Shown: in pieces, positions 25,638 through 49,128 of the stretch
How the letters are laid out: every line of letters begins with the position of its first letter
Position numbering within the stretch: position 1 is the first letter of the stretch
Origin: Marinobacter excellens HL-55
GTDB lineage: Bacteria; Pseudomonadota; Gammaproteobacteria; Pseudomonadales; Oleiphilaceae
Direction: 5' to 3'
NCBI GenBank assembly: GCA_001314845.1
Contig: LJZQ01000008.1
Coordinates: 1 to 64,000, forward strand
DNA: 64,000 bases
Program-made: the position numbers and the translations under genes
The notes under the pieces: model-generated
Databases searched by the model: none
Told to the model about the DNA's origin: nothing
The model's input: the letters and a program-made list of their open reading frames with translations, nothing else

Positions 25638-25714
25638 GCAAATCCTTTTGCCTTAGTGGGTACTATAACCACCGCCAATTTTTAATCAACACCATAACCA
25701 CCTTTCCAGGGGTA

Positions 25715-25754: not shown

Positions 25755-25784
25755 AAGTAAAGTTCTCCAAACCAACCAGGCTAC

Positions 25785-25818
25785 AAAGGGGTCGTACCCC
25801 GCAGGGGTATGACCCCAC
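25785..25818. repeat. Palindromic element copy E (GGGGTC family)
   Basis: AAAGGGGTCGTACCCCGCAGGGGTATGACCCCACC. Confidence 0.65.
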
Positions 25819-25845
25819 CCTTCTGCCAGCGCCGATCTCCGGCGT

Positions 25846-27071: not shown

Positions 27072-28192
27072 TTAACCCCCATCTCCCCCAACATAAACTC
27101 ATTCACCCGATGAACATCGTACTTCTGCTCCGCCACCTGTCGTGACCGCTGCCCCATCGTGCCCACCAACTCAGGCTTCTGAATGAAGCGAACCATAGCC
27201 GCTGCCAACTCATCCACGGCCTGCACAGGCACCAGAAACCCGTTATCGCCATCGGTCACGGTTTCCCGACAACCCGGTGCATCTGTGGTGATTACCGGGC
27301 GGCCCATGGCCATGGCTTCCAGGACGGTGCGGGGAGTGCCCTCACGGTAAGAAGGCAACACATACACATTGCAGTCCGCAATGGCCGGGCGCACATCCGC
27401 CAATTTGCCCATAAACTCAAGCGTGCCTGAATTCACCCATTCATCCAGTTCATACTGGCCAATGGCATCCGGGTTGTCATCTATCCACCCCACCAGGCGA
27501 AACACCGCATTCGGGTGATCAGCTTTCACCTTTTGAGCGGCCTGGGCGTATTCGCGAACACCTTTGTCACCCAACAAACGAGCAATCAGAAGAAACGACG
27601 GCTGCTGCGGTAACGGTGCCAAAGCATAACCTGTCACATCCACACCAGAGCCATTCACCACACAGGAAGGAATAACCGATGGCAATAACCTCAGTTGCCG
27701 GAACAGGGCCTCGTCATCTGGGTTCTGGAAAAACACTTTGCGACTTTTGGAAAGCCCGAACCGGTATAACCGCTGAATCAGCTTGCGCAGCAGGCCCCGC
27801 TTGCCAGAGGCCTCCCCAGTAAAGGCATAACCTAAGCCGGTAACCAATGCAAAGCGGTTGGGAACACCCGCCAGCCAGGCCGCCAGAGAGCCATAGATGA
27901 CCGGCTTGATGGTATACCCCAGCACATAATCCGCCTGAATTCGGCGCATTAACCGCCAAAGTTCACGCACCGTGCTCAAATCCGCTAACGGATTAGTTCC
28001 GGTGCGCTTCAAACCAATGTTATGCAGGGTAATACCCAGGGATTCCAACTCCGCGCGGATAGCAGGCACATCGTCCAAGTCCGGCGCAGCTACGTGCACA
28101 TCCAGCCCCTTTGCCACCAGAGCCTGTAACAAAGGGCCCCGGAACTTAATCAACGAATCGGGAAAACTCCCAATCAGCAAAAACGTTATCAA
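27068..28192 (-). CDS. Glycosyltransferase, GT4 (PglA-like)
   Basis: [70 protein letters not shown]. Confidence 0.9.
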
Positions 28193-29451
28193 AGCCGCAA
28201 ATCCGCCTCACCCAAAGGCAAAACACCCTTCAGATCAAACAACACACCTCCCGCCTTCAGATAACCCCGCAGATCCCCCACACTCATGGCGACATACTCA
28301 TTATGTGGAACGGCCACAATCAAGCCATCATAGCTGCCTTTTTCCGGCGCATTGGTCAGGCTAAACCCGTATTCATGCTCAGCCTCGGCGTTGTCTGCCC
28401 AGCAGTCGGTAACATCTACCTGGCAGCCAAAATCCTGCAGCTCTTTCACCACATCAATCACACGCGTGTTGCGCAAGTCCGGACAGTTCTCTTTGAAGGT
28501 GAAACCCATTACCAGCACCCGAGCATTGGCGATGGTGTGGCCCGCTTTGATCATGGCCTTGACCAATTCCGACGCCACATAAGGCCCCATGCCATCGTTG
28601 GTACGGCGGCCAGCCAGGATGATTTCCGGGTGGTAGCCAATAGCCTGTGCTTTGTGAGTCAGGTAATACGGGTCGACACCAATACAGTGGCCCCCGACCA
28701 GGCCGGGTTTGAATGGCAGGAAGTTCCATTTAGTTCCGGCTGCAGCCAGCGCTTCGTGGGTATCAATACCGAGCCGAGCAAAGATCATCGCCAGCTCATT
28801 CATCAGCGCAATGTTCAGATCCCGCTGGGTGTTCTCTATCACTTTGGCGGCTTCCGCCACCTTGATAGAACTGGCTTTGTGAGTGCCGGCGGTGATGATA
28901 TCCGCGTACAGGGCATCCACCTCTTCAGCAATCGCCGGAGTTGAGCCAGAGGTCACTTTCATAATGGTGGTTACCCGGTGCTCCTTATCTCCGGGGTTGA
29001 TCCGCTCCGGGCTGTAACCGGCGTAAAAATCCTCGTTGAATTTAAGGCCAGACACCCGCTCCAGCACCGGCACGCATACTTCTTCCGTTGCACCGGGATA
29101 AACGGTCGACTCGTAAATCACAATATCGCCGGATTTGAGTACCTTACCTACGCTCTCACTGGCCTTAACTAACGGAGTGAGATCCGGCGTTTTGTAATCA
29201 TCAATCGGAGTGGGAACGGTAACGATGAAAACCGTGCAGTCCGCGATATCATCCAATGAATCGGTAAATGACAACTGAGCCGCGCCGGCCAGCTCATCAG
29301 CAGCCACCTCACGGGTAAAATCCTCACCCTGCGTCAGCTCGGCAATGCGGTTGGTGTTAATATCAAAACCCACAACTGGGCGCTTTTCGCCGAAGGCAAC
29401 GGCAAGGGGGAGGCCTACATAGCCCAGACCAATAACAGCAATGTTCTTCAT
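28189..29451 (-). CDS. Nucleotide-sugar dehydrogenase (TviB/WbpO family), copy 2
   Basis: Very similar along its length to 6591..7853; [48 protein letters not shown]. Confidence 0.94.
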
Positions 29452-30468
29452 TTAATTCTCCAAATACCAAGGCATCGCCTTAGCAATCCCCTCACGAATC
29501 CGATACTCCGGCGCATAACCCAGCTTACTCGCTGCCTTACCAATATCCGCCTGAGAATGCCGAACATCCCCCGGCCGGAAATCCCGGTACACCGGCTTTT
29601 TGTCATACACCACGCCATTCTCGGCCAAAGCACTCTTCAGCGCAGCGAACAGATCATTCAACGTGGTGCGGTCACCCACCGCCACGTTGTAAACGTCATT
29701 CTTGGCCGAATCTTCCGCCGTGGCCGCAAGCAGGTTGGCCTGCACCGCGTTCTCGATAAAACAGAAGTCCCGGCTGGTATCTCCATCACCGTTAATGAAA
29801 ACGTCCTCACCGCGCACCATAGCTGCTGTCCATTTTGGGATGACTGCCGCATAGGCACCGTTCGGATCCTGCCTTTTGCCAAACACATTGAAGTAACGCA
29901 GTCCAATGGCTTTGAACCCATAGCTACGGGCAAACACATCGGCGTACAGTTCATTCACATACTTGGTAACCGCGTACGGCGATAGTGGCTTGCCTATATT
30001 GTCTTCCACCTTCGGCAACGCCGGGTGGTCGCCATAGGTAGAGCTGGACGCCGCATAGGTGAAACTCTTTACCCCCGCATCCCGCGCTGCCACCAGCATA
30101 TTCAGAAAACCGGTAATGTTGGCCGCGTTGGTAGTAATGGGATCATTCAAAGACCGGGGCACCGAACCGAGTGCGGCCTGGTGCAACACGTAGTCCACAC
30201 CCTCACAGGCCCGGGCACAATCTTCGGGATTTCGGATATCGCCTTTGATGAAGGTGAAGCGGGACCATTGCGCTGGCGACACCAGAGAATGAACTTCATC
30301 CAGATTGCTTTGGTGCCCGGTGGCAAAGTTGTCCAGTCCGATTACGCGTTGGTTTAGTTTTAGGAGGTGCTCAAGGAGGTTGGAGCCTATGAAGCCGGCG
30401 ACGCCGGTGATTAGCCAGCAACCCTGGTCTGGCAACAATGAATTCGTTAAATCCAGATATCGCGACAT
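29452..30468 (-). CDS. WbpP/TviC-type UDP-hexosamine 4-epimerase
   Basis: [67 protein letters not shown]. Confidence 0.93.
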
Positions 30469-31732: not shown

Positions 31733-32304
31733 ATGCGTTTCAACACCCTGGCAGGAACGCCCCCAATTACAACATTTGACTCAAATTCATCAGTAACAAC
31801 CGCACCTGCTGCAACGACAGACCTACTCTTAACAGTAACACCGGAAAGTATCCTTGCTCCGCAGCCTATCCAAACATCGTCAAAAATAGTAACACGACCC
31901 AATTCTACAGCATTATACTTAATCGGAGTGTCTGAGTTTATCCATGTATGGTTAGAGGTTAATATACTCGAATTATGTGCTATTGAAATATTACTTCCGA
32001 TTATCAATCCGCCATACGCATCAAAGTAGCAATTGTCATGAATACTAACATTATCTCCAATATTTAGTTTATGCCAGTTAAGTATACGAACATTAGTGCC
32101 GACTCGTACGTTTTTACCAACGCTTCCACACAAACACTTAAGAATCACATAGCGAATTCCAATAAACGGAAACTGACTAAACCTTGAAAAAAAATCCCAA
32201 AAAAAGATCAAAACAGATTTTGGCAGAATTTTAAAAATCAAACATAAAATGTTCAAAACTGAGGCATATCTTAGAAAAAGATCCCGACCGCTACTCATAA
32301 ACAC
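31729..32304 (-). CDS. Hexapeptide-repeat acyltransferase
   Basis: NIGDNVSIHDNCYFDAYGGLIIGSNISIAHNSSILTSNHTW...VWIGCGARILSGVTVKSRSVVAAGAVVT. Confidence 0.9.
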   Translation of the reverse strand: MFMSSGRDLFLRYASVLNILCLIFKILPKSVLIFFWDFFSRFSQFPFIGIRYVILKCLCGSVGKNVRVGTNVRILNWHKLNIGDNVSIHDNCYFDAYGGLIIGSNISIAHNSSILTSNHTWINSDTPIKYNAVELGRVTIFDDVWIGCGARILSGVTVKSRSVVAAGAVVTDEFESNVVIGGVPARVLKRI

Positions 32305-32539
32305 TAAGCTCCGAACACTTAATTATCAAATGCGACACAAAAACTACGATTGCAATACAAAAGCACTTAACTGTCACAGACAATTACCATTAGATAGATT
32401 TGTTTCAATTTAGAAAACTGGGGAAGTAAATCGTGATAGGCACTAATTTACTCTATACCGGTAGCTTCTATAATATAAAAAAATAAAACCTATAGGTTGG
32501 AGCTCTTTAGACTATAATTTTCCAAACTACTTCACGATT

Positions 32540-33625
32540 TTATTTACTGAAATCCGACAACCGATATCCAAGTGAATTCACGACTGCTTTCGCTCTAGAA
32601 TCCCAAGTATATTCAGACTTGAACTTTAAGTGCGCATTTTCTGAGCAGTAATGTCTTAAGCTTTCATTACTCAGTAAGGAGTTTATAGCTGAAACCCACT
32701 GATCAAGAGATCCAGAATCGCAGAGTAAAGCATCAACACCATCCGAAAGCACCTCCTTAAAAACCGGAAGATCCGTACAAACAATCGCTTTCTTTGTTGC
32801 CATATACTCAAACAATTTCATTGGCGAAGTCCACTTTCCAATATTTCCTTTTCCTATAAATACGTCAGGATAATTAGGCAACAAAGCAATCTTAAAAGCT
32901 CCATAACAGCTATCGATATTTGCTGGATCAATGAACCCGAGAAACTCAACGTTGTTATGCTTAATCAACTTCCTGTAATGATCGATTTCAAATGGTTCCC
33001 CCCCAAACACCACATAGCTGACGTTAGGCATCCTATTCGCCAGCTCAACAACTCGCTCCACTCCTTTCCCTCTCTTAAAGCTTCCAACATACCCGACATC
33101 ATAAACTTCGTTTTGATCAGTGACCCTAATACAATTTGCAGCATCGTGGTGTACAGAGATCCGGGAATCGGAAAATTCATAACTAGCTACAAGGTCATTT
33201 TTTAGCTCCTCAGATATACAAACTATAGAAACAGAACGACTCTTTGCCAAAAATCTCATAACTCTTACAAGTAATCTATTTAGGCTTCTCTCCGGTAATG
33301 CATGAAACTCGAAAACAAAATAGCCTCTGAAGAAAAACAATAGAAATATAGACGCATACCATCTAGTATACACAACATCGACACTATTCAATTTAAAAAA
33401 ACATGATAGTAATTGACCGAACGCTCCCCATCGTGAAGTCAGGAAGTAGCTAGGATTTTTCCCTCCATAAATTTTTTCAATCTCAGGTTTTGTGCTAAGA
33501 AATCGTCCAGAAAAAACAACTTGCGAATATTTTGACAGCGATGCCGTCATATTGTAGGCATGAACTGAACTGGCGCTTTGAGAAGGAAGTACACAAGCAG
33601 CGCAATATAAAACCTTAAGTGTCAC
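32540..33625 (-). CDS. Glycosyltransferase, GT4
   Basis: VGYVGSFKRGKGVERVVELA; WTSPMKLFEYMATKKAIVCTDLPVFKEVL. Confidence 0.87.
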   Translation of the reverse strand: MTLKVLYCAACVLPSQSASSVHAYNMTASLSKYSQVVFSGRFLSTKPEIEKIYGGKNPSYFLTSRWGAFGQLLSCFFKLNSVDVVYTRWYASIFLLFFFRGYFVFEFHALPERSLNRLLVRVMRFLAKSRSVSIVCISEELKNDLVASYEFSDSRISVHHDAANCIRVTDQNEVYDVGYVGSFKRGKGVERVVELANRMPNVSYVVFGGEPFEIDHYRKLIKHNNVEFLGFIDPANIDSCYGAFKIALLPNYPDVFIGKGNIGKWTSPMKLFEYMATKKAIVCTDLPVFKEVLSDGVDALLCDSGSLDQWVSAINSLLSNESLRHYCSENAHLKFKSEYTWDSRAKAVVNSLGYRLSDFSK

Positions 33626-34832
33626 GACGCTGTCCTTTATCTAATAGAATAGATGCAGAAACCAACATGAAAAGCACAAGAAATGTACCACGACTAGCCA
33701 GATGCAACTCCTTAAAATTCATAAGCAGAATTGCTACGTACAATAGGATTGCTAAAGCTGAGACTACACTGCTATTCTTTGTATGAAGATACGTTAAAAA
33801 AAATAAGAAACCAAAAACCATAACGGATGTAGTAATCAGCCCGTAGCCATACACCAATCTAACGTATCCTATATCAGATTTAACGTAGGGAAGATTTTCA
33901 TTTCTGCCTAAATTTAACTCTCCAAAGAGCAAACCTAGCTCATCATCTGGGAAGCTCCACATACTCCCGATCGCCCTTGCCGTGTGGTTTACTTCACCTG
34001 AAAAAAAACCCTGAGTAAGCCAGGCAAAATTTTGGCTATCTTTAACTACCTCACCAACACCGGAATAGAAGATAATCGGCGCCAAAATAAATAGAAATAC
34101 AACCAAAACCGGGACAAATTTTCGAATAAAAACAAGGCTGTTAGACTCTTTAATAGTGCATAAAAAAAGAAATATCATTATAAATACAGCACTGAAATAC
34201 AACCCTGTTCTACCCATTAAAACTATAGCCAAGAAAATAACCAAAGACTGAAAAACATAAAAATAGTTCTTCTCTTTTAGAAATAGAAAAAGAGAAATGA
34301 AGAACACAAAAGAGAACGTAAAAGATGCAGAAGCCCCTCCGCCAATACTAATGTCAAAAATTCGATGGCCAGTTTCTATCCAATTTAACTGTGAATCATA
34401 ATCTAAGATTAAAGAGGCAATTAAAGCCAACTCCGAAGATGAGAAAAAAACTATAACAAAAGCCGAATTCACAGTGGTAGATAGTACTACCGCCTTCAAA
34501 AGGTCAGACCAATCTAGGCCGTTAGATCTGAATAGCCGAGCAATAAAGAAAGCTGAAAAAAAGTAAATCAGCAACCTCAAAAACATTATATAAACTTCGG
34601 GATCAGAATGACCAAATCCGGCTTCGGACAGGAGATAATAGAAAATAAAAAAAGCCAGAAGAATCAGGGATGAAAAAATCAGAGTTGAATTAAATTTATA
34701 TTTTACTAGGAGCGACAGCAACCCAATTATTACAACCGCAAAATTAGACATCATCATAACATCTAACCAAATAGTGCGCGGCCCATATAAACAAAAAAAC
34801 ACTAGAAGATAACTTCCAATTTTTCTTTTCAC
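33615..34832 (-). CDS. O-antigen/polysaccharide polymerase (Wzy-like)
   Basis: Polytopic about 405-aa protein with long loop before the last TM cluster; position among GTs; AT-rich. Confidence 0.72.
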   Translation of the reverse strand: MKRKIGSYLLVFFCLYGPRTIWLDVMMMSNFAVVIIGLLSLLVKYKFNSTLIFSSLILLAFFIFYYLLSEAGFGHSDPEVYIMFLRLLIYFFSAFFIARLFRSNGLDWSDLLKAVVLSTTVNSAFVIVFFSSSELALIASLILDYDSQLNWIETGHRIFDISIGGGASASFTFSFVFFISLFLFLKEKNYFYVFQSLVIFLAIVLMGRTGLYFSAVFIMIFLFLCTIKESNSLVFIRKFVPVLVVFLFILAPIIFYSGVGEVVKDSQNFAWLTQGFFSGEVNHTARAIGSMWSFPDDELGLLFGELNLGRNENLPYVKSDIGYVRLVYGYGLITTSVMVFGFLFFLTYLHTKNSSVVSALAILLYVAILLMNFKELHLASRGTFLVLFMLVSASILLDKGQRRDT

Positions 34833-35046
34833 AACTAGCTAGCAGCACCCTCTCGTTAATTATATGTAGATTTAGTATTCATTAAACTGTCGGCGCTCCG
34901 ACTTTAAATCGAGCCTTACAGTTTATTATTCAGACCAGAACTAAAACCCATAATATATTCAAAAATGCAACACCATACTTTATTGAAGTACCAACTAACT
35001 AGCGCAATCCGGACTAACTCCATATCCTTCTCAAAGCAAGGTATAA

Positions 35047-35991
35047 CTAAGCTTTAGAAAATAAGCGATACATCTTAGGTGCTAGTACCCCAAAAAAGAC
35101 TTTTGTTCGCACTGAACTTGATTTAAGCATCAAAACAATAATGCGCCCCCAGTCCATCTTTTTTTTTGCATCAATATAAGTGGTCCAATCGTCTGACATC
35201 AGTGTTCTTGCCAGGCGGACCGATAACCATGCTCTCTCAGATAAAGTCATTTTGTCCCAATGTTCAATCTTTACTTTAATCGTACCAGAATAACTATCCG
35301 ATAGATTGTTCAGGCTTGCCTTATCATCATTTACTTGGTCCGAACTTTCATAGAAATAGCCTATTTCAGGAATTCTACCTACGCGGACCCCAGAAAGCAT
35401 AAGTCTTAAATAAAGATTTACGTCTTCCCCACGCCTCAACGACAGGTCATAAAAAACGCCGGTTCTCAACAACTCATTCTTTTTTATGAATGGTTTTAGA
35501 ACACCATAATTTCTCTTAAAAACACCACAGGTTCCCTGAAGCATTTCAATTAATTTAATCTCTTCGTTCACGTTATTCCAATGAGGCCAATAGGGGCGCT
35601 TGAACCCTGTAACTTCAGCTAAATCGCATATATTATCAAAAACAATGCCGCAGTCATTATTTTCAATGAAATCATAGAAGTTTTCTAGCCGTTTCTCGGA
35701 AAACTCATCATCTGAGTCCAATATAGCGACCCAATCACCAGAAGACGCATTGATCCCAGCATTTCTTGCTGCAGACGGCCCACCATTTTCATCTAATTTA
35801 ATTGCTCTTATTCGCTTATCAGAATCGGCCATTCTTCGCGCTAGTTCATAGGTACCATCTGGCGAATTATCGTCTACTATGATCGCTTCCCAACTCCCAC
35901 TCGTTTGCGCTTTCAAGCTATCTATCGCTCTATTAAGAGTTTTCTCAGCGCGATAGGCTGCAATTATCACAGATACCAGTTTTTTTTCCAT
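35047..35991 (-). CDS. Glycosyltransferase, GT2
   Basis: VSVIIAAYRAEKTLNRAIDSLKAQTSGSWEAIIVDDNSPDGT; SAARNAGINASSGDWVAILDSDDEF. Confidence 0.93.
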   Translation of the reverse strand: MEKKLVSVIIAAYRAEKTLNRAIDSLKAQTSGSWEAIIVDDNSPDGTYELARRMADSDKRIRAIKLDENGGPSAARNAGINASSGDWVAILDSDDEFSEKRLENFYDFIENNDCGIVFDNICDLAEVTGFKRPYWPHWNNVNEEIKLIEMLQGTCGVFKRNYGVLKPFIKKNELLRTGVFYDLSLRRGEDVNLYLRLMLSGVRVGRIPEIGYFYESSDQVNDDKASLNNLSDSYSGTIKVKIEHWDKMTLSERAWLSVRLARTLMSDDWTTYIDAKKKMDWGRIIVLMLKSSSVRTKVFFGVLAPKMYRLFSKA

Positions 35992-36411
35992 ACTAATAGC
36001 GACACCAGGCTTGGTATACCATTGATCAAACTTAATATTAAAGAGTCTGTTTATAATTTGTTTAGACCAATTCCCTTACAGGGGCATATAACTAACTTAA
36101 CTTTTTAAAATCCAGAAAAGCATCAAATAAACACATTCTTAATGTAGAGAGCAAAATCTGGCACTATTAACTTTCTATTAGAGTCTACATAGCATAACAA
36201 CTATTTACCCTATTTACTTTTTACCCCAAATCTTTGATAGGCTAACCAAACATAGCCAGCGCCTGCCCTTGACCATAAATCTGCACATTAAGCGTCGACT
36301 AAAACTCTTCAATATTCAGCAAATTATATAACGGGATTTATCTTGACCAATTTATTGGAAAACATAATTCTTTACTTTAACTGCAACCACAAAAGTGCCA
36401 ATATAATTCAC

Positions 36412-37548
36412 CTAACTTTCATAAAGTGCTTTCATGAGAAAATCATCACTGCTTGTAGAAAGCTTCTTCCTTATACTGTCAACCGATGACCAATCGATAT
36501 TATTTTTAGGTATGCTTAATGAGGTTTTAGCTGGCAAAATTATTAACCTATCGATTAGGCCGAGTTGCGAAAGTAGCGATTCGAACCGCGCTAGCCCCCT
36601 GCCGGAATTTCCAATCGCAATAAAGGGCTTATGAAATATTATAGCGAACACCGTCCCATGAAATGAATCCGTAACCACAAATTCTGCTTCACTAAATGCT
36701 TGAAGCCAACTTTCCACACTTTGAAGGCGACATCGATCTAGATTCTGCCTATTTATTTCAGCAATTGAATCTTGTGTCTTAATCGAAAACACTCTGGAAT
36801 TTAATGAATTACTGATTTTATCTACTAACTCTTGTTTTTCTAACGAACCATCAAGGATATAGGATACCAAACATCCTTTATGCTCATTGATTCCACAACC
36901 TTCAATAAGTAGTTCATAGTCCTCAATATCCAAAAGCAAGGTTGGATCAACAACGCAGGTAGCATTCACGCCTAGCTTTTCTTTGCAAACGTCCAGAGCA
37001 GTGGTTTCCCGTACAGATATCGCATTAAATTGCTGTGCTAGTTCACTACAATGTGCGGTTAATTGGTCGGAATACTCCCAATCATCGACACCAAAGGAGG
37101 CTCCATAGGCAATTCGCTTTGGCGAGTAATCCGTATCGTTGAGAAAATCCAGATAGAAATTCAGGATACTGGGAGAGTATCTGGGCCGCCACACCTGATC
37201 GCTTCCTACTAGAAATGCATCGAATTTATTGTTTTGGTAATAGCGCCTTAAATCTTTCTCGTCGACTATCGTTGGTGACAACGTTAACTTTTGGTCTCGA
37301 AATTTTGTCAACTCCCCAAGAGTGTAGACATCCCATTTATCCGAATTTATCGTCCCACCCCTTCCTCTTAGGAGATTCATCGAGTTAATAATCTTCCGCT
37401 TTGCCATCCCCTTTATACTTGGCAATTTCCTCCGATCTAGTGTCTCTACTTCCACCCCTTTTTTCTTCAAATGTGTTTGTAAGGCATAAGCTTGTAGAAG
37501 CCCTCCATAATTATGACCAAGAGGCTGAGTAAGGATTGCGACTTTCAT
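36412..37548 (-). CDS. Polysaccharide pyruvyl transferase family protein
   Basis: LTQPLGHNYGGLLQAYALQTHLKKKGVEVET; FLVGSDQVWRPRYSP; VVTDSFHGTVFAIIFHKPFIAI. Confidence 0.92.
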   Translation of the reverse strand: MKVAILTQPLGHNYGGLLQAYALQTHLKKKGVEVETLDRRKLPSIKGMAKRKIINSMNLLRGRGGTINSDKWDVYTLGELTKFRDQKLTLSPTIVDEKDLRRYYQNNKFDAFLVGSDQVWRPRYSPSILNFYLDFLNDTDYSPKRIAYGASFGVDDWEYSDQLTAHCSELAQQFNAISVRETTALDVCKEKLGVNATCVVDPTLLLDIEDYELLIEGCGINEHKGCLVSYILDGSLEKQELVDKISNSLNSRVFSIKTQDSIAEINRQNLDRCRLQSVESWLQAFSEAEFVVTDSFHGTVFAIIFHKPFIAIGNSGRGLARFESLLSQLGLIDRLIILPAKTSLSIPKNNIDWSSVDSIRKKLSTSSDDFLMKALYES

Positions 37549-39287
37549 TTCTTTCCTAGCGCCTTTTTCAGCACATTCACACCACTTTGCCCGATTAAGC
37601 TACGAGCAATATTTTTTGCTCCTTTATTAGACTCCCTTCTTATATTCCGAATTACCTCTAATGCTAAACTCTCTTCCTCGCTATCGGTAAACACCTCAAA
37701 CACCACGGACTGCCCAGCGGCATCTTTCTCCAAAAACTCGTGATGTACCGCTTCATATTCTTCCTTTGAAGATGCGCTAATGTACTTAAAGCCCAAATCC
37801 TGAGCGTAGTGCTTTATCAATGTCGGAGATTTGCTCCCATAGTGGCCCGATGCCGAAATGAACTCATCCGCCTGGTCACCGAAGTGTGCAGCCTTACTAT
37901 TGTATTGGCGGAATTCAGTACCTTTCCCGTTATTTATGATCATAATGCGCAGATTGTTACCAGCATGCCGATTGCCGAGCGCATTCATGTCGTAGAAAAA
38001 GGCCAGGTCGCCCAAAACACAAAAGTAAAGCTTGCCGGGATTGGCGAGCGACGCACCCAACAAACTGGAGAGCCCTCCATCGATACCAAATCCCCCCACG
38101 TTAGACATCGACCTAACAGAATGCGGTAACTCAAAGAAATTCCACGCGCGGAGACTGTTAAGGATACCGAAGTGGACGACCGAGCCTTCAGGAATCTTGT
38201 GCGCCGTTTGTTGTGCGACCCAGATGTTAGAGAACGGAATCTCCGGGCATTCCTGCTGAACCTCCCTCAGACGAGCCTGGCAGTGTTTCAGGTATTGATC
38301 GTTCGAAGTGTTGGATGAATTTGTGTAGCGCTCGAAAAATGCTTTTTCATCCATCTCAAATACATAACGTAACTTACGAAAGGTATCGCGAATCTCACCG
38401 TCCTCGCTTACACGCCAGACTTCTTTGCCGACCATTCCCATACTGGCGTAGTCGCCGGTCACTTCACCGATATGGATAGTCACATCCGGCTTGTCAGATG
38501 TAGGATCCGCCTGATCCTGACTGGCTGCGAGTGAATACAGCAGCCGGTATTTTCCTTTGTAAGAACTGGTGTGGTCACAGAATACGACACCATTGTTGCT
38601 GCCGCAGAAGCGATCAAGTGCTTCCGTTTCCTCTGGGCTAAAAGGAGCATGAGCACCAATAAAGACTGCAACCCTGCCGGTGAGTTCTGGCAACGTGTCG
38701 GTTGCAGTGAATCGATTCATCACACGACAGGCCGGCAGGGTTTTGGTTTCATATGAACGGCTATAGCGGGTTGGCATATTGATGTGGACGGGGCCACCAC
38801 CACCGCGCTTTAGCTCAAGAATGGCTTGGTTGACTTTGACTTCGCATTCCCACCAGTCGTCATCGTCTTTTACGATGGGAAGTTCCACGCTGATGCGCTG
38901 AGTATCGTTGGGTAAGTTGCTTCGATCCGTGACCTGCGCGACATGATGCCCCACTTTGGCCACTAGCTGTGTTGACGTAATGGCAAGTATTGGCAATTTG
39001 CGGTAGTAAGCTTCAATTAGGCCCGGTGTGTAGTTTTGCGATGAGGTTGCACCTGTACAACTAATAACTACCGGCTCACCGGACTCATGCGCCAACCCAC
39101 ACGCCATATATGCCGCCGAGCGTTCGTCAACAGCGGAATAAACCTCAAAAAAAGGATCATACTGAACACTAGCAACAAATGTCACATTCGTTGCGCCCGG
39201 AGAGGCAATTACCTTCCTGATCCCGTTAGCTTTTAACAGCGAAATAATAATAAGGGCATTCTTTTCGTCAGTGTAAAACTTGCTCAT
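37545..39287 (-). CDS. Thiamine-diphosphate-dependent enzyme (MenD/acetolactate synthase-like) in an EPS locus
   Basis: VIASPGATNVTFV, DERSAAYMACGLAHESGEPVVISCTGATSSQNYTPGLIEAYYRKLPILAIT; C-terminal GDLAFFYDMNALGNRHAGNNLRIMIINNGKGTEF (ThDP GDx(n)NN-like motif). Confidence 0.85.
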   Translation of the reverse strand: MSKFYTDEKNALIIISLLKANGIRKVIASPGATNVTFVASVQYDPFFEVYSAVDERSAAYMACGLAHESGEPVVISCTGATSSQNYTPGLIEAYYRKLPILAITSTQLVAKVGHHVAQVTDRSNLPNDTQRISVELPIVKDDDDWWECEVKVNQAILELKRGGGGPVHINMPTRYSRSYETKTLPACRVMNRFTATDTLPELTGRVAVFIGAHAPFSPEETEALDRFCGSNNGVVFCDHTSSYKGKYRLLYSLAASQDQADPTSDKPDVTIHIGEVTGDYASMGMVGKEVWRVSEDGEIRDTFRKLRYVFEMDEKAFFERYTNSSNTSNDQYLKHCQARLREVQQECPEIPFSNIWVAQQTAHKIPEGSVVHFGILNSLRAWNFFELPHSVRSMSNVGGFGIDGGLSSLLGASLANPGKLYFCVLGDLAFFYDMNALGNRHAGNNLRIMIINNGKGTEFRQYNSKAAHFGDQADEFISASGHYGSKSPTLIKHYAQDLGFKYISASSKEEYEAVHHEFLEKDAAGQSVVFEVFTDSEEESLALEVIRNIRRESNKGAKNIARSLIGQSGVNVLKKALGKK

Positions 39288-39307
39288 AGTCTCACCAGGC
39301 CAGGTGT

Positions 39308-40369
39308 TTAATTTTTGATGAAGCGGTAAATAAGGTATTTGATTTTCTGTTTCCAGTGCTCAATCTCTTTAAGGCTCGCCATTTCACCGCTGAATCGGTC
39401 TTTGATAGCCTCCGAGCGCCAATCGATAGCCAGAAAGTTTGGCTTTTCAAGAAACTCTTTAAGGCACCGGGTAAGACCCGGCTCAAGCGGCCTGAATTCC
39501 TGCAAGTCCACAAATTCCGAGATCTTCGAGCTATCAAACGCCCGGTTAAACAGCCGATCGTATTTGATTTGATACTCTGCCGGTTTACTGCGTGAAAAAT
39601 CATCCAAACCCAGCAGCAGTACTTTAGGGCGCTTGCCAAAGTGCTTTTCCAGTACGGCAAGATAAACGTTCAGCACTTCCCGCCAGGTAGCCGCATCTCG
39701 TTGTGTGATGTGATAGGCCTCGCCCAATGCGCGGGGCTCGCCAATAATTGAGGCCATTGCACCAGCTACATCAAGACCGTATGTCAGCGTGGTGAGTTTA
39801 GAAACAATATCCTCTGAGAAAACCATAGTGCGGCCTTTCAGCGCCCGGTACAGCCAGCCTTCTTTTTCCAGTACACCTAACTGCAGGCGTTGCTCACTGT
39901 AGGTGATATAGGGCCGAATGATCGTCCAGCTCTTGCTGCCAGACTTGTGAAGGATATTCTCCTGCCTTGCTTTAGCCAGAGAATATTCATCGGTCGCCAA
40001 GAACTTCGCATCCTTAGAGCTATCAAGCAATCGTGGAGATTCTTCGCAGATTGGCCGGCTGGAATCTGCGTAAACACGGGCAGAACTCAGGAAAATGTAT
40101 TGGTCAGTGGCCGCCAGAAACTTAGGCGCGCGTTGCTCAAAGACAGGCGTGGTGTAAACCATGAAGTCAACGATCGCATCCCACTTACGAGTAAGTAGAG
40201 GCGCCAGAAAGCTGTTTTCCTTTGCGTTGCCCTGAATATAGACGATGTTGGCCGTCGATTGTCGGTGAGAGCGAGTTGTCACACTCACCTTATCGCCCCG
40301 ATCAGCAAGTATTTGTACGAGATGGGCCCCCATTGCACCGGTACCACCCAGAACCAGAATATTCTTCAT
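39308..40369 (-). CDS. NAD-dependent epimerase/reductase-like (atypical SDR)
   Basis: NILVLGGTGAMGAHLVQILADRGDKVSVTTR; IFLSSARVYADSSRPI. Confidence 0.83.
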   Translation of the reverse strand: MKNILVLGGTGAMGAHLVQILADRGDKVSVTTRSHRQSTANIVYIQGNAKENSFLAPLLTRKWDAIVDFMVYTTPVFEQRAPKFLAATDQYIFLSSARVYADSSRPICEESPRLLDSSKDAKFLATDEYSLAKARQENILHKSGSKSWTIIRPYITYSEQRLQLGVLEKEGWLYRALKGRTMVFSEDIVSKLTTLTYGLDVAGAMASIIGEPRALGEAYHITQRDAATWREVLNVYLAVLEKHFGKRPKVLLLGLDDFSRSKPAEYQIKYDRLFNRAFDSSKISEFVDLQEFRPLEPGLTRCLKEFLEKPNFLAIDWRSEAIKDRFSGEMASLKEIEHWKQKIKYLIYRFIKN

Positions 40370-41901
40370 GCGCTTTGTAATTTGGGTAACCTTGAACGAA
40401 TCATTGTAACTACCTTTGCCCGCCAGGCCTTATCGAGCCCGATGAAATACATGGCAATGGTGGAGGCAAAAAAGCTGGTGAATATCACCAATGCTGACCA
40501 GTAAAAACCGTTTGGTAGGAACTGGCTTATAAAAGTAACTGGAAGCGCCGTAACCACAACGATGGCCAAAACCGGTAGCGCAGTGAACCGTAAGAAGTTC
40601 ACTACAGGGAAACCCGTAAGACGGTTAACCAAGAAGAGTCGCACACCGAACATCAGGATATTAGCGATGATGGCAACGATAAATACGCTGTAAGCAGGGG
40701 CTCCAGCTGCAACCACCGCCCAAGCGGTCAGGAATATACAAATTTGAATCGTACCCAGCGTGAGTTCATAAGCTTTCATCTTACCGGGTGCCCTGGCGGC
40801 GGCTGTCAGCGGCATACTAATCGACAGAATCAACGCTTCTATCAAGGCCAGCTGGGCAAAAAGCACTGCATCGGGCGGCACTGTAGTCAGCCAAATACCA
40901 AGTATGGTCTCCATCTCCACCATCATGGGCAGTGCAAACACCCATAGAAGAAAGAACGTGATTCTGGAGCCTCCGGTAATTAGTCCATACATTTCTTGAT
41001 GCTGATTCGCTGCGTAACTTTTAATAATCGGAGGATAGAGACTGGTGTTGAAGTTACCCGAGAATATATTGACCTGACTAGCAATCTGTACCGACAGTGC
41101 CCTGGCAGCCACCACTGCCGGACTGAACGACTGATTCAACAAGACCGTGATGGCATGAGTCCTGGCAATGGTTGAAACCTGCCCGAAAACGGTCCAACCA
41201 GTGAAACCTATGATTTCTTTGAGTAAGGCTGAATCCCAGTAGAACTTTTTGAACTGACATTCTTCGTACCGGTAAAGGCAGATCCCGACATAGATTATCG
41301 CGTTTACAACGCCAACAAACAGCACCAGAAGGCCATAAAGTTCGAGCTTGTCCCATACGATGTATTGCAGAAGGAACACTACACCGAGCTTCATAAACGC
41401 TTCGAGGATCGAAATGTATGCGTATAGCTTCATGTCTTCATGCGCCATGATGATGGCCATGAAGGGGGTGGTGATTACGCTGAACAGAAACGTAAGTATT
41501 GCAAAGTGATAGAGTGCTTTAGCGGCTTCAAACCGGTCTTCCGGCACTGACAGTTCTGTGTTAACAAACCAGAGGCCGATAGTCTGCAGAGCTATATAGG
41601 CTATTAATGCAACCGATCCGTAGAGAACTAAGTTAACAGAGAAGGTCGTTTTCAGCCGCTCGTTGTTCTGCTCCCCCAAGGCGAATGAAAAAAAGCGCTG
41701 GGTTGCCTGAGCCAAGGAGCCGGGTAGGAAAGTACTGAGGGCCACAAGGCCGCCTACTGCGCCGTATATGCCGTAGTCTTCTACCCCGAGCTGATCGAGA
41801 ACAACCCGGACTGTGTAGAGGCTAACGAACAGAATCAACAGCTGACGGAAGTAGAGCATCAGCGTGTTCTTGGCTATTCGTTTGTTTCTGTCTGAGGTCA
41901 T
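40366..41901 (-). CDS. wzx: Wzx-type flippase (set B)
   Basis: Polytopic 511 aa; NTLMLYFRQLLILFVSLYTVRVVLDQLGVEDYGIYGAVGGLVAL. Confidence 0.88.
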   Translation of the reverse strand: MTSDRNKRIAKNTLMLYFRQLLILFVSLYTVRVVLDQLGVEDYGIYGAVGGLVALSTFLPGSLAQATQRFFSFALGEQNNERLKTTFSVNLVLYGSVALIAYIALQTIGLWFVNTELSVPEDRFEAAKALYHFAILTFLFSVITTPFMAIIMAHEDMKLYAYISILEAFMKLGVVFLLQYIVWDKLELYGLLVLFVGVVNAIIYVGICLYRYEECQFKKFYWDSALLKEIIGFTGWTVFGQVSTIARTHAITVLLNQSFSPAVVAARALSVQIASQVNIFSGNFNTSLYPPIIKSYAANQHQEMYGLITGGSRITFFLLWVFALPMMVEMETILGIWLTTVPPDAVLFAQLALIEALILSISMPLTAAARAPGKMKAYELTLGTIQICIFLTAWAVVAAGAPAYSVFIVAIIANILMFGVRLFLVNRLTGFPVVNFLRFTALPVLAIVVVTALPVTFISQFLPNGFYWSALVIFTSFFASTIAMYFIGLDKAWRAKVVTMIRSRLPKLQSA

Positions 41902-41911
41902 GGCGATGGCT

Positions 41912-42877
41912 TCAGCGCTCTGGCAATCCCTGGTTTTCAGCGGGCCTGGCTTCTTCTTTGCCGGACCGAATAAAAGCTATGACGAATACTGTCAACACAC
42001 CTAGCATACCGCCGAGCATCGAAGCGACTACGGCTATCAAAGCGCGTTTGGGCTCACTCTTTTCTTGAGGTACCACAGCAGGGTCTACGGTTTTGAACAC
42101 GTATTCACGCTGGGCGTTGGCGAGCATTACAGTGCGTGTTTCAGTTTCTATTAGCTGGTAGAACACCTGCTGCATGCCGGTGATGTTGGTTTGGCGTAGT
42201 TTTTCTTCCAGGTAGGCGATGCTCGCTTCGGCTTCTTGTACATCTTGGGCGCGCATGTGTTCGTTGATGTCTTGCACCAGTTTTTCCACCCAGTCTTTGG
42301 CGGCTACCGGTGAAAGGCTTTTGATGCCTAGGGTTACCATGCCAGTGTCTTTGTTGTCACTTACGCTGAGAAGTGCGCGGAAGGCTTTTACCAAGTCCCA
42401 GTTTGTGGGTTCCTGGGATTTGCCGGAGTCATCCTGTTGCCATTGGCGGGTTTCCGGGTTGTAGACTTCACTGTTGATAACCCAACGTTCATTGGCCATG
42501 TCCCAGGCTTTTGTGGCCATGAGTGGCACTGCTAGTTCATGGTGGTGAATGAAGTCTGTCAGGAAGGCGCGGGAGCGCAGGGTTTCTTTGGCTAATACGG
42601 TTTTGTTGGCGCCGCCGCCACCTCCAAGGTTTACTCCGGCCAGGCTGGCCAGGCCGCTGAGTTGGCCGCTGATTCGGCTGCCGCCTTCGTTTTGGGCTGG
42701 GGCTAGTAGGGCGCTGGCTTGGTAGATATTGGGTTGGCTTAGGGCGTAAAAGACGCCGGCGGCGGCGAAGACGATGGTGAAGGCGATGATTATCCATTTG
42801 CCTCGCCATAGGGTGGCGAAGAGTTCTCGGAGGTCTATTTCGTCGTCTGGGTAGTGAGTTGTGGTTGGTTCGGCCAC
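41912..42877 (-). CDS. wzz: Wzz-type chain length determinant
   Basis: DEIDLRELFATLWRGKWIIIAFTIVFAAAGVFYALSQPNIYQASALLAP; C-terminal TM after PVVPQEKSEPKRALI-like proline motif. Confidence 0.92.
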   Translation of the reverse strand: MAEPTTTHYPDDEIDLRELFATLWRGKWIIIAFTIVFAAAGVFYALSQPNIYQASALLAPAQNEGGSRISGQLSGLASLAGVNLGGGGGANKTVLAKETLRSRAFLTDFIHHHELAVPLMATKAWDMANERWVINSEVYNPETRQWQQDDSGKSQEPTNWDLVKAFRALLSVSDNKDTGMVTLGIKSLSPVAAKDWVEKLVQDINEHMRAQDVQEAEASIAYLEEKLRQTNITGMQQVFYQLIETETRTVMLANAQREYVFKTVDPAVVPQEKSEPKRALIAVVASMLGGMLGVLTVFVIAFIRSGKEEARPAENQGLPER

Positions 42878-42910
42878 GGATATTGTTCCTTGGTTTAGCT
42901 TGGGTGCCTG

Positions 42911-42942
42911 GTGGGTCAGACCCCATGCGGGGTCAGACCCTG
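42911..42942. repeat. Palindromic element copy F (GGGGTC family), between wzz and the export gene
   Basis: GTGGGTCAGACCCCATGCGGGGTCAGACCCTG. Confidence 0.75.
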
Positions 42943-42958
42943 GCCTATCTGGCCGGCG

Positions 42959-45508
42959 TTATAGGCTGTTTACTGCTGCTGCGCCTAGGGCGATTTGGTA
43001 GATGATTTGGCTTACGTTGGTCCAGAGTTCCAGCTGGTTCAGGCGGTCTACGTCGATTGGCATGATGACGGTGTCGCCGGGTTCTAGTTGCTGGCTTCTG
43101 CCGCCGAACCAGCGGCTGCGTTGGGGTAGGGTTACGGAGCCGTCGGCTTTTACTACGTAGACTCGGCTTTCGTCTGCCTGGCGGGTGGGGCCGCCGGAGC
43201 GTTCCAGGTAGTCATCCACGGTCAGGCCAGCCTGGTGCAGGTGGCTAGTGGGGAACTGTACTTCGCCGAATACGGAGACCGACTGGGGGATAGTGGGTAT
43301 GGTAAGGCGGTCGCCGTCTTGCAGGCGGATGGCCTGGTAGTTTTCGCTTTCCAGCACGGCGGCCAGGTCTATGACCATTCGGCCTACAGGGCGGCTGCTT
43401 TGCACTTCCTCTAACAGGCCTTGTACTTCCTGCACCCGCTCGGCGTTTTGGCCGCCGAAGCTGTCACCGTCCAACTGAATGCCGAGGAGGTCGCTTTGCA
43501 GGCGCTCTTCTGCTTCGCGCAGGCGTTGGGCTTCCAGTTGGCGGAGTTTTTCTCGGGTGAATACGGCGCCGCGTGGGAAGGCGTTATTGGTTACGCCCCC
43601 TGCCCTTTGCAAGACGTCTTTCAGGGTTTCGCCATCGCGGAAGGTGTATTCGCCGGGGTAGCGCACTTCACCGGCCAGGGTGATGGTGCGGGTTTTGGCA
43701 AAGTCCGGGATGGATTTTATCAGGATGGTGTCTCGGCTTTGCAGGTTGATGCCTGCGTTGCCGGCCATGGCGTCTGCTAGGTTCACGTTGAGGATGTTGG
43801 TCTGGCCGATGCCATCATCATCGGTAGTGTAACGGGCCACTTCGGCTTGGTATAGGGAGGCAGAGTCTTTCAAGCCGCCGGCGACAAATATGGCATCTGC
43901 CAGGCTGCGGGTGGCGGGCATGGGGTATTCACCCGGGTAGCGCACGGGACCGCTGATGCGGATGGTTTGTTGGGGGCTGCCGGGCTGGGCCTGGGCTTTC
44001 AGGCGTTGCAGAACGGGGGTGAACAGGCTTTCACGGGTGAAGTTATCACCTTCCTCGCCGCCCTGCACTTTTCCGGCATCGGAGAAGATGAGGATACGGT
44101 CCCTTTCTTCCAGTTGCAGGTCTTGGTCACTGCCCGCATTTTGAATGGCATCGCGAAGGCGTAGGTTGAGTACCGATATGGAGTCGGTTTGTTTGTCGGT
44201 TCTCACGATGGCCGCGTAGCGTTTATCCGCCGTTGGCATCAGGTCTGCGTCCAGGCTTTGCAGGATGGAACTCACACGCATCCCCGGCATCCAGGCGAAT
44301 TTACCAGCACGGGTGGCTGCGCCTTTTACTTCCACGTATTGGCCGGTGATGTCGGAGATAGACGGTATGCGAACACGGTCGCCGGCTTGCACGCGGGCGT
44401 TCTGGCCTTGTTGGGCGGTGTAGTCTGCCTCTGCGATGATGCGGAGGAAATCCTGGTTGGTTCGCTCGATGTTTACTCGCTGGGGATAGGCTTGCGGGGT
44501 TAGGCCGCCAGCCATACGCACCAGGTCTGCCAGGGTGTTGTCGCCTTTGAGTTCGTAAAGGGCTGGGCGGTATACCTCCCCTTCTATGCCGGCACGTTGG
44601 CCCACAGGCGGGATGAAGATGACATCGCCCGGTTGCAGGCGGTTGTCTGCGCTGCTGTCACCTTTTTGCAGCAGGTCATACAGATCCAGAGTGCCGACCA
44701 GTTTGCCGTTGCGTTTGTGCTGTACGTTACGCAGGGAGCCGTTCTGTTTGATGCCGCCGGATACGTAGAGGGCGTTGGTGATGGTAGACAGCGAACTGAC
44801 GCTGTAGGAGCCAGGGTTGCGCGCCTCACCCAATACGAATACGCGCATGCTGCGCAGTTCGCCCAGGGTGACGGCGGCTTCTACACCAATGTATTGCTCG
44901 GATACCCGCTTGCGGATTTGTTGGCGGGCCTCATCAAAGCTCAAGCCGGCGACGGTAACCGGGCCGGAATCCGGAAAGCTGATGGTGCCGTCGCGGCTGA
45001 TGGGCAGTTCCAGGTTCTGGTTCTGGTTGCCCCACATCTGGATGCGCAGTACGTCGCCTGGGCCCAGGGTATAATTCGAAGGTATGGGTATTTCTGTAAC
45101 CGGTGCGAAGGTGGTGGGGCTGCCGGCGAAGAGGTCGTAGCCGTAGGGCTTGAGGCCGCCGTTTTTGGCGGTTTGTTGGTCTTCCTGTTCTTTCTGGCTG
45201 CGAGCCCGTTCGCGCTCTTCGTCAGTGATGGTGGTTACCGGCTCTACTACGTTGACCTGTTCCGGGCGTTGGCTGGTGCGTTGGCCGCTGGTTAGGTTGT
45301 TCAGGTCTACGCCGTATTGGCTGGCCAGAGATTCCTGCTGGGCCCTTGGGAGCTGTTTGAACTGGTCAAGCTGGGCCTGGCTGATGGATTGGGCTTGGGT
45401 GGCCAGGGGGAATAGTAGGGCTAGTGGGAGAAAAAGGGTTTTCAGGTTCACGGGGCTTGTGTTCCGGTTTTGATATTGAATTTTTGGGATTAAATAATTT
45501 TTTGCCAC
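42959..45508 (-). CDS. Wza-type polysaccharide export protein with multiple SLBB domains
   Basis: YTLGPGDVLRIQMWGNQNQNLELPISRDGTISFPDSGPVTVAGLS; repeated SLBB (VRYPGEYTFRDGETLKDVLQRAGG); likely GTG start at 45451; signal peptide without obvious lipobox. Confidence 0.93.
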   Translation of the reverse strand: MAKNYLIPKIQYQNRNTSPVNLKTLFLPLALLFPLATQAQSISQAQLDQFKQLPRAQQESLASQYGVDLNNLTSGQRTSQRPEQVNVVEPVTTITDEERERARSQKEQEDQQTAKNGGLKPYGYDLFAGSPTTFAPVTEIPIPSNYTLGPGDVLRIQMWGNQNQNLELPISRDGTISFPDSGPVTVAGLSFDEARQQIRKRVSEQYIGVEAAVTLGELRSMRVFVLGEARNPGSYSVSSLSTITNALYVSGGIKQNGSLRNVQHKRNGKLVGTLDLYDLLQKGDSSADNRLQPGDVIFIPPVGQRAGIEGEVYRPALYELKGDNTLADLVRMAGGLTPQAYPQRVNIERTNQDFLRIIAEADYTAQQGQNARVQAGDRVRIPSISDITGQYVEVKGAATRAGKFAWMPGMRVSSILQSLDADLMPTADKRYAAIVRTDKQTDSISVLNLRLRDAIQNAGSDQDLQLEERDRILIFSDAGKVQGGEEGDNFTRESLFTPVLQRLKAQAQPGSPQQTIRISGPVRYPGEYPMPATRSLADAIFVAGGLKDSASLYQAEVARYTTDDDGIGQTNILNVNLADAMAGNAGINLQSRDTILIKSIPDFAKTRTITLAGEVRYPGEYTFRDGETLKDVLQRAGGVTNNAFPRGAVFTREKLRQLEAQRLREAEERLQSDLLGIQLDGDSFGGQNAERVQEVQGLLEEVQSSRPVGRMVIDLAAVLESENYQAIRLQDGDRLTIPTIPQSVSVFGEVQFPTSHLHQAGLTVDDYLERSGGPTRQADESRVYVVKADGSVTLPQRSRWFGGRSQQLEPGDTVIMPIDVDRLNQLELWTNVSQIIYQIALGAAAVNSL

Positions 45509-47430: not shown

Positions 47431-49128
47431 TTATTCCGGGTTGAGAGGTAGACTTTGGTTGAACCTGCAGTTTTGGGCGTTAGCATCGCAGACATCAAAC
47501 CAAAGGGTGTCTTGCGCTGGCGCCACGCCAGGCACCAGGAATCTAGGCTCTGTACTTTCGGCGATGATCTGTTTGCCGCCTTGAGGATCACTTTTAAGCA
47601 CCACATGACGCTGGTCGCCCGTTAAGGGCTCATCGTTTATGGTCAGCTCAAACAGGGCGTTGAAATCCAGATCAGCTGGCTGATTGTTAAGGTAGGGCCC
47701 ACGATTGCATCGCAACGGGCAATCCCAAATCGGCCTTAAGCGCACATTGGGAGCGGTCTGGTCCATGATTACCCTGTCGAGGGCCAGGCCGGCGTCTGCT
47801 ACCCGGCGGGTGCCAGTGAGTAATGAAAGGTCGATGCCAAGCAAAGAATCACTGGCTGGCCGGGCGGTCACTGTTAGGTGTTCAGCAAGCGCTGCTGGTT
47901 CCAGTGCTGGGTTTTGTTGTTTAAGCAACGCAGCAATGCCAGCCACCAGAGGTGAAGCGAATGAGGTGCCACTCACGGCGATGAGCCGGCCACGTTGGTC
48001 CAGAGACGTTACCCGAACCCCCAGGGCAGCCAGGTCTACGTTGTCTCCGGTGTTAGAGAACTCGGCAAGCTGGCCGTCTGCCTGGACTGCCGCAACGGTG
48101 AGGACGTTGGCGCAGTTGGCCGGGGTGAAGGTTGATGCATCTGTACTACTGTTCCCAGCGGCCACGACCACCAAAACGCCACGGCTATGGGCATAGTCTA
48201 TGGCGTCTTGCAGGAAGAAGGGGCATTCTGCCACGCCCTCACTGCCAAGAGACGCGTTGATGATATCGACCGGCGCGGGGAGCGCCGGCACGCCATCAAT
48301 AGAGGGATCCCCTGCCAGCCAGCGTATGCCCAGCGCGGTGTCTGCCAACGAGCCGGCTACCTGCCCTTGATCGTTGCAGCTGAGTGCGCGGGCGGCCACC
48401 ACATTGGGGGCGACAATCCCGGTGATGCCCGTATTATTATTGGCTATGGCCGCCATAACGGCGGTTACCGCGGTGCCGTGGGCGCCATCACACACCGGGT
48501 TAATGTCCGGTTCCAAGAACGTAGAAGAGAGGCCCTCCGGGGAGGCCAGGTTGTACCCCGTTTGGTAATTCAAATCCCGGATGTTGTAGAAACCGGAATC
48601 CAGCACACCGATGCTCGGTTGTTGGCTAATGAAGACGCGCAGGTAGGCATCCAGGATGTTCTGAACACCCGCCGTCAGCGGGCCAGGTGCTTGCCAGGAC
48701 GTTTGCTGACTAAACCCCGGGTCTGTCGGTTCGGCATTGGTAGCTTGTGGCGTGACGGCACCGCTGGCGCCTGCGCTGTCGTCGGGAGCCAGCCGTTGAG
48801 GCGGCTCTGGCTGCGGCGGTATAGTCACTACATGATCCTGCGCAATCTTGAGCACGCCGGGCAAGCGACGCAACTGATCCATGGCGGCGGCTTCGTTACC
48901 CGGTGTTACGTTGGTAAGCCCAAGGGCGCCATGGCGCTCGAAACCCGGAGGCAGCTGCACCCCCTCTTCAAATTTAACCAAGATGCGCCCAGTAGGCTGG
49001 CCGGGGGTAAAGTTGAGCCGTTTGGCGTTATCAGGGAGGTTTCCCGGCAATTGGGATTGCTGAGCCACGGCATGGATCGCGGGCCATACCGCCAAACAGA
49101 GCCCGACAAAGATTAGACGAAGGCCCAT
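47431..49128 (-). CDS. Secreted S8 (subtilisin-like) serine peptidase
   Basis: Signal peptide; IGVLDSGF, GAHGTAVTAVMA, SGTSFASPLVAGIAAL triad motifs. Confidence 0.92.
   Translation of the reverse strand: MGLRLIFVGLCLAVWPAIHAVAQQSQLPGNLPDNAKRLNFTPGQPTGRILVKFEEGVQLPPGFERHGALGLTNVTPGNEAAAMDQLRRLPGVLKIAQDHVVTIPPQPEPPQRLAPDDSAGASGAVTPQATNAEPTDPGFSQQTSWQAPGPLTAGVQNILDAYLRVFISQQPSIGVLDSGFYNIRDLNYQTGYNLASPEGLSSTFLEPDINPVCDGAHGTAVTAVMAAIANNNTGITGIVAPNVVAARALSCNDQGQVAGSLADTALGIRWLAGDPSIDGVPALPAPVDIINASLGSEGVAECPFFLQDAIDYAHSRGVLVVVAAGNSSTDASTFTPANCANVLTVAAVQADGQLAEFSNTGDNVDLAALGVRVTSLDQRGRLIAVSGTSFASPLVAGIAALLKQQNPALEPAALAEHLTVTARPASDSLLGIDLSLLTGTRRVADAGLALDRVIMDQTAPNVRLRPIWDCPLRCNRGPYLNNQPADLDFNALFELTINDEPLTGDQRHVVLKSDPQGGKQIIAESTEPRFLVPGVAPAQDTLWFDVCDANAQNCRFNQSLPLNPE

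Follow-up and report, generated by a model that had tools for sequence, protein, structure and literature searches.

The window analysed here is the whole 64-kb stretch of contig LJZQ01000008.1 from Marinobacter excellens HL-55, to which all window coordinates refer, and it carries a polysaccharide gene cluster in which three minus-strand genes encode a transferase of the polysaccharide pyruvyltransferase family (PF04230), a thiamine diphosphate (ThDP)-dependent enzyme, and a short-chain dehydrogenase/reductase (SDR). The open reading frame (ORF) coordinates confirmed the arrangement given by the original prediction, with a 4-nt overlap between the PF04230 and ThDP ORFs and a 20-nt gap between the ThDP and SDR ORFs. 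Its domain labels were borne out by Pfam: PS_pyruv_trans (E=6.7e-36, 125.1 bits against a gathering cut-off of 25.3) for the first protein, TPP_enzyme_N (2.1e-18) and TPP_enzyme_C (1.8e-6) for the second, and Epimerase, an extended SDR match (1.5e-9), for the third. The three-gene unit described there is real, but a coupled fourth gene was overlooked: a flippase gene that overlaps the SDR gene by 4 nt and is a member of the conserved unit (Table 1).

Table 1. Features of the cassette and its immediate surroundings in the window.
Feature	Position	Strand	Remarks
PF04230 pyruvyltransferase-family transferase, SFH subtype	36412..37548	minus	378 aa
MenD-derived ThDP carboligase/decarboxylase, cassette core	37545..39287	minus	580 aa
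Cationic C-terminal helical extension of the ThDP enzyme, codons 549-580	37548..37643	minus	absent from MenD
Extended SDR, probable NADPH-dependent ketone reductase	39308..40369	minus	353 aa
Amphipathic cationic C-terminal helix of the SDR, codons 339-353	39311..39355	minus	sequence; helix 339-350 in model
Wzx-type flippase, fourth coupled gene	40366..41901	minus	511 aa; weak MatE Pfam match
Poorly conserved GT2 glycosyltransferase, usually found just downstream of the PF04230 gene	35047..35991	minus	Pfam and neighbourhoods
Wzz chain-length determinant and long ORF, upstream export context	41912..45508	minus	Wzz by Pfam

Occurrence and composition of the cassette

The three genes form the core of a cassette that had no name before and that recurs in many bacteria unrelated to one another. 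In it, an enzyme descended from menaquinone (vitamin K) synthesis seems to have been given a new purpose, the making of an unusual carbon decoration on cell-surface polysaccharides. Its closest relatives are in Marinobacter, at 84-86% identity, and in the closest loci with an extended SDR the flippase is 77-92% identical. Few genomes in each group hold the ThDP gene: among 60 others from the genus it was present in 2, and a class-wide sample of 369 genomes yielded, besides the window, only a true MenD. Relatives of the ThDP protein occur in Pseudomonadota, Bacteroidota, Bacillota, Verrucomicrobiota, and metagenome-assembled genomes (MAGs) assigned to other phyla, as well as on a Ruminococcus albus plasmid; where the assignment rests on a single MAG contig (Dehalococcoidia, Nanosynbacter; 76-80% identity), the phylum may be a binning error. 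No relatives were found in the viral contigs searched, and a low-stringency DNA search of Escherichia coli genomes gave no match, which leaves the cassette unconnected to any E. coli antigen of known structure. A literature search on this gene combination found nothing relevant. Four fecal records labelled 'Bacteriophage sp.' (L116-L119: MT835535, MT835934, MT835729, MT837954) hold bacterial polysaccharide loci and are probably mislabelled.

Core-type loci with a readable neighbourhood were counted by hand, leaving out L107 and L108. A reductase lies at most two genes from the ThDP gene in 38 of 39 loci, and is an extended SDR in 21, a classical SDR in 14, and an aldo-keto reductase (AKR) in three; the sole exception, L024, has an FrhB-type protein in its place. 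For PF04230 the count is 36 of 37 loci, at a distance of up to ~3 genes from the ThDP gene, the one without it being L017 from Qipengyuania. This co-occurrence of ThDP enzyme, reductase, and PF04230 protein is far beyond chance, and the three are usually adjoined by a flippase, with homologues or replacements adjacent in most loci. Nine test loci were gathered later: a second Alistipes, a second Lachnospiraceae copy, L104-L106 from the order of Vibrio, and four from the fecal records, three of them intact and one truncated. All eight that could be assessed carry both PF04230 and a reductase, and the truncated one carries a reductase. In five Clostridia loci, PF04230 and the ThDP enzyme are fused into one ~1000-aa protein that is followed by an SDR.

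The fused ORFs lie near 6600-9650 in L029, L031, L032, L033, and L038, and the L032 fusion sits in a compact cluster with a CDP-glycerol glycerophosphotransferase-type gene, ABC-transporter genes, and a GT2 glycosyltransferase gene. No PglF- or TviC-like gene was found within 8 kb in the compact Clostridia clusters. A keto-sugar-forming enzyme is not a conserved cassette member, and the idea that a keto-sugar pathway must be linked to the cassette found no support. FrhB-type iron-sulfur proteins adjoin the ThDP and PF04230 genes at L024:6765-7880 and L106:10523-11866. L107:7938-10731 and L108:7305-10220, from the order of Vibrio, represent a third, more MenD-like subfamily with an SGGNRN motif and PF04230 directly upstream; in L107 a zinc-type dehydrogenase adjoins PF04230. 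The Synergistaceae ThDP gene is apparently split into two ORFs (L034:1371-3151, L037:1991-3264), either a decayed gene or an assembly error.

Ancestry and active sites of the three enzymes

The best NCBIfam match of the ThDP protein was menD (TIGR00173), at 165.7 bits and below the curated cut-off of 244.2 (164.8 bits in the whole-genome profile search), while the acetolactate synthase (ALS) model TIGR00118 scored 55.9 bits against a cut-off of 538, and all ALS models gave 56 or less. In a maximum-likelihood tree, 31 cassette ThDP proteins formed one clade (support 100/96) that was sister to Bacteroidota MenD (100/99) and well apart from the ALS-type enzymes of this genome. The separation shown is that from these enzymes, which made up the ALS side of the tree; it is firmer than the exact sister group, since a long-branch warning applies to some MenDs. 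The top 50 Foldseek matches of the ThDP model were all MenD; domains of this monomer model were poorly placed (TM-score 0.4-0.5, root-mean-square deviation ~19 Å), and only the identities of the matches were used, with pocket geometry set aside. The window protein also carries the MenD-type GDL motif and not GDG, which is canonical in the YerE-like group (PMC12247030). The kinship with YerE and ALS suggested by the original prediction was consequently not supported.

Active-site positions were compared in E. coli MenD numbering between the core family (n=29) and 14 MenDs. E55, Q118, R395, and D442 are kept in all 29 core proteins, while R33, R107, and R413 are kept in none and S391 in four; I474 is replaced by Glu in 28, whereas all 14 MenDs have Ile. 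The cofactor motif and catalytic Glu of the window protein are intact (E55, Q118, D427, N453). In the Listeria monocytogenes MenD structure, Ser408, Arg412, and Arg431 (E. coli S391, R395, and R413) bind the 2-oxoglutarate carboxylate, and Ile491, by position I474, contacts the cofactor (PMC12312563). Only the Arg412 equivalent (R380) is kept in the window protein, with L376 and V397 at the other two positions. These residues point to a diverged MenD with its cofactor chemistry intact and its donor and acceptor pockets rebuilt. The residues with which MenD handles 2-oxoglutarate and isochorismate are lost; a donor lacking the distal carboxylate is the simplest inference, and the donor is probably a short 2-oxo acid, pyruvate rather than 2-oxoglutarate. 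The original prediction had counted grouping with true MenD as an argument against its pathway; the phylogeny does place the enzyme next to MenD, but the core family no longer has MenD's substrate residues.

The window SDR has the extended-SDR glycine motif (G8xxG11xxG14, at least 90% conserved in the alignment) and an invariant Y129xxxK133, and carries Arg33 but no acidic residue after β-strand 2. An Arg after the second strand of an SDR points to NADP(H), and on this ground the window SDR is read as a reductase. The NADP-type Arg is also found in extended SDRs of other cassettes, and a GR motif in most of the classical ones. The structure model (mean predicted local distance difference test score 94.7) had as its nearest PDB folds extended SDRs acting on nucleoside diphosphate (NDP)-sugars, namely epimerases, dehydratases, and reductases; neither the SDR nor the PF04230 protein had a sequence match in the PDB. 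The reductase slot is filled by three superfamilies in non-orthologous replacement, and in Amphritea (L014) a ThDP protein 76% identical to that of the window nevertheless has a classical SDR as its partner. The common trait of the three types is carbonyl reduction. ThDP and SDR diverge together, with a Spearman correlation of 0.88 between their identities across locus pairs and a mean gap of 4.4 points for the SDR. The swaps for unrelated reductases and the NADP-type Arg support the earlier proposal that the SDR reduces the product of the ThDP enzyme.

PF04230 is the least conserved member, its identity lying 19 points below that of the ThDP protein averaged over locus pairs (SDR 4, Wzx 8) and following it with a Spearman correlation of 0.42. 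The guanine-cytosine (GC) content of its gene is 40.7%, compared to 48.8% for the ThDP gene and ~49% for ThDP, SDR, and Wzx genes alike, and low GC continues from PF04230 through the glycosyltransferase genes and the polymerase-like gene. A recombination junction probably lies at the PF04230/ThDP boundary, since the GC content breaks there; the low-GC island (36-41%, window 32000-37500) comprises glycosyltransferase genes, the polymerase-like gene, GT2, and PF04230. Such variability would suit a transferase that meets a different acceptor in each type of repeating unit. Positions of the pyruvyltransferase CsaB were mapped onto the window protein via a WcaK alignment: R148 and H308, which bind phosphoenolpyruvate (PEP) in CsaB, are matched by the invariant R180 and H297. 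The position of CsaB R306 is taken by Ser295, and by Ser in most partners, and that of K328 is ambiguous, with a near-invariant Arg321 nearby. The canonical RxH motif is kept in a few partners (L019, L020, L089), most having SFH.

Signs of membrane association and the proposed tailoring reaction

Features of membrane association recur throughout the cassette. The last 30 residues have a mean net charge of +6.0 in the 31 cassette ThDP proteins and +0.3 in 13 MenDs, and the ThDP model places a helix at 549-577 (with low local confidence). Most extended SDRs of the cassettes end in amphipathic cationic segments, the classical SDRs mostly start with one (also at L089 and L090), and next to the AKR variants lies a gene for a protein with transmembrane segments at its N-terminus (L020, L023, L119). 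These small transmembrane proteins are encoded between the AKR and ThDP genes (L020:5854-6654, L023:1796-2662, L119:3838-4464); those of L023 and L119 are 41% identical, and that of L020 is weakly alike. That such tethering recurs suggests that the substrate or a complex is bound to the membrane. The helices on ThDP enzymes and SDRs, together with the transmembrane partner of the AKRs, suggest that the substrate may be lipid-linked, as with characterised pyruvyltransferases: the acceptors of CsaB and WcfO are attached to lipids (PMC6801904, PMC10435577). I consider a membrane-bound substrate slightly favoured.

Taken together, it is nearly certain that the cassette is dedicated to glycan modification, and likely that it forms a C-C bond and then reduces a ketone. 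In the preferred reading, it would tailor a surface glycan at the cytoplasmic face of the inner membrane. The ThDP enzyme would decarboxylate a short 2-oxo acid, with pyruvate the likeliest, and add the acyl unit to an acceptor through a C-C bond; the partner reductase would turn the resulting ketone into an alcohol with NADPH; PF04230 would act on the variable sugar acceptor, either placing a pyruvate-type group to be extended or attaching the product; and the Wzx flippase would export the decorated unit. The chances of this full four-step reading being correct are about even.

Several observations weigh against it. The chemistry, donor, and acceptor are all inferred, and the lost residues speak against 2-oxoglutarate without proving pyruvate; with R380 (MenD R395) kept, the donor may still be a charged one. 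PEP use by most PF04230 partners is unsure because the R306 equivalent is missing. The amphipathic tails were recognised from sequence alone, the fused PF04230-ThDP proteins lack a cationic tail at the ThDP end, and the modelled SDR fold, with its likeness to NDP-sugar enzymes, would also fit a soluble NDP-sugar substrate. The L107 and L108 relatives keep several MenD residues, and so do two Paludibacter copies that stand in cassette-type loci although their genomes hold another MenD; these copies may represent an early stage or use another donor. The Paludibacter copies (L036:8001-9731, L040:7739-9469) score 285-294 bits against menD, above the cut-off, and would be labelled menD by automatic annotation, while the other MenD of each genome scores higher.

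A functional precedent is YerE, a ThDP carboligase with a role in O-antigens (PMC12247030), which is paired with the reductase YerF in the yersiniose pathway, likewise within an O-antigen cluster. By analogy, a soluble NDP-4-keto sugar would receive the two-carbon unit of pyruvate from the ThDP enzyme, the side-chain ketone would be reduced by the SDR as by YerF, and PF04230 would add a separate pyruvate ketal. This would suit the SDR fold and the PglF-type 4,6-dehydratase in the window cluster (20836-22770), but the cassette enzyme belongs to another ThDP lineage outside the ALS clade, with GDL in place of GDG; the dehydratase is not a conserved member and has no nearby counterpart in the compact Clostridia clusters; membrane-type helices are unexpected for NDP-sugar enzymes; and the linkage and fusion of PF04230 would be left unexplained. 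A YerE-like reaction is therefore rather unlikely. The general idea of the original prediction survives: a pyruvate-derived glycan decoration is favoured. A branched NDP-sugar, though possible, has ceased to be the best reading, since features of membrane association are seen in the ThDP enzyme and with each of the three unrelated reductases.

The ThDP protein could also be a simple 2-oxo-acid decarboxylase, as phosphonopyruvate and sulfopyruvate decarboxylases are, with the reductase making an alcohol or hydroxy acid that PF04230 or another transferase attaches. AKR and SDR partners suit aldehydes, and the R. albus locus has an aminotransferase and a cytidylyltransferase-family gene, as phosphonate-decorating loci may. 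However, the enzyme descends from a carboligase, membrane anchoring would be needless for the reductase of a free small aldehyde, and no phosphonopyruvate decarboxylase model was among the 25 best NCBIfam matches, which together make this explanation unlikely. It is more improbable still that PF04230 is an ordinary PEP ketal pyruvyltransferase, linked only through shared antigen clusters and unrelated to the product of ThDP enzyme and SDR. PF04230 genes are common in polysaccharide loci, and the partner is not orthologous between strains and comes in two subtypes, SFH and RxH, but a co-occurrence in 36 of 37 loci and five fusion proteins argue otherwise. As for a housekeeping MenD or acetolactate synthase, menD is indeed the best family match, yet the score falls below the MenD cut-off, and the genome has IlvB-type enzymes of its own and neither another MenD nor a MenB above curated cut-offs. 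A separate true MenD coexists with the cassette in Vibrio, Aestuariibaculum, Prevotellaceae, and Paludibacter genomes. With the substrate residues lost in the core family as well, a MenD role is excluded in practice and any housekeeping role is extremely improbable, in agreement with the dedicated polysaccharide function first proposed.

Within the preferred tailoring reading, a specific product can be drawn. PF04230 would install a PEP-derived enolpyruvyl ether, the ThDP enzyme would add a pyruvate-derived acetyl anion to this acrylate in a 1,4 (Stetter) addition, as MenD does on isochorismate, and the NADPH-dependent reductase would yield sugar-O-CH(COOH)-CH2-CH(OH)-CH3. That the cassette makes such 2,4-dihydroxypentanoic-acid-type ethers on lipid-linked sugars is doubtful. 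The structure was derived from MenD chemistry before the literature was checked, though not in full independence of earlier reports of such acids. The same product, predicted from PEP-derived enolpyruvyl, pyruvate acetyl, and NADPH reduction, is the 2,4-dihydroxypentanoic acid ether that PMC10609480, citing Shashkov 2008, places in the Providencia alcalifaciens O31 O-antigen. As characterised PF04230 enzymes form ketals and not enol ethers, the match is worth testing but is no evidence of a link; no Providencia cassette and no gene-to-structure link for the O31 ethers were found, the gene cluster of that serotype not being available for comparison.

Relation to known systems and surrounding genes

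The cassette enzyme shares with MenD (SEPHCHC synthase, TIGR00173) its fold, ancestry, catalytic Glu, Gln118, the GDL...N cofactor motif, and R395, but differs from it by the loss of N390 in addition to R33, R107, R413, and mostly S391, by the I474 to Glu exchange, by the added cationic C-terminal helix, and by its polysaccharide gene context. The PF04230 partners belong to one family with the ketal pyruvyltransferases CsaB, WcaK, and WcfO and keep the CsaB R148 and H308 equivalents, but mostly have SFH for RxH and lack the R306 equivalent, and are set apart by their near-constant ThDP and reductase partners. Glycan-decorating ThDP carboligases were previously known from the YerE lineage; the cassette suggests that MenD, too, was recruited for glycan tailoring, independently of that lineage, and its spread over distant phyla takes in gut Bacteroidota and Clostridia. 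Its ThDP genes can readily be annotated in error as menD or 'thiamine pyrophosphate-binding protein', and it offers a compact system for enzymology and a marker for an uncharacterised glycan decoration. Where the hydroxy-acid ethers of bacterial antigens come from has had no explanation, and the cassette supplies a concrete candidate. If the dihydroxypentanoate reading were true, it would be the first known pathway to the O31 substituent and a new use of MenD chemistry.

Besides Wzz and glycosyltransferases, the polysaccharide cluster of the window contains PglF/DegT/PglD/PglC-like genes, a possible diacetylbacillosamine start, and a pair of genes for a uridine diphosphate (UDP)-sugar dehydrogenase and a TviC-like epimerase, all within 20836-30468. 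The long ORF next to Wzz encodes 849 residues with the character of an export protein, as read from its sequence only. A subtilase-family peptidase gene (window 47431-49128) adjoins the polysaccharide export genes.

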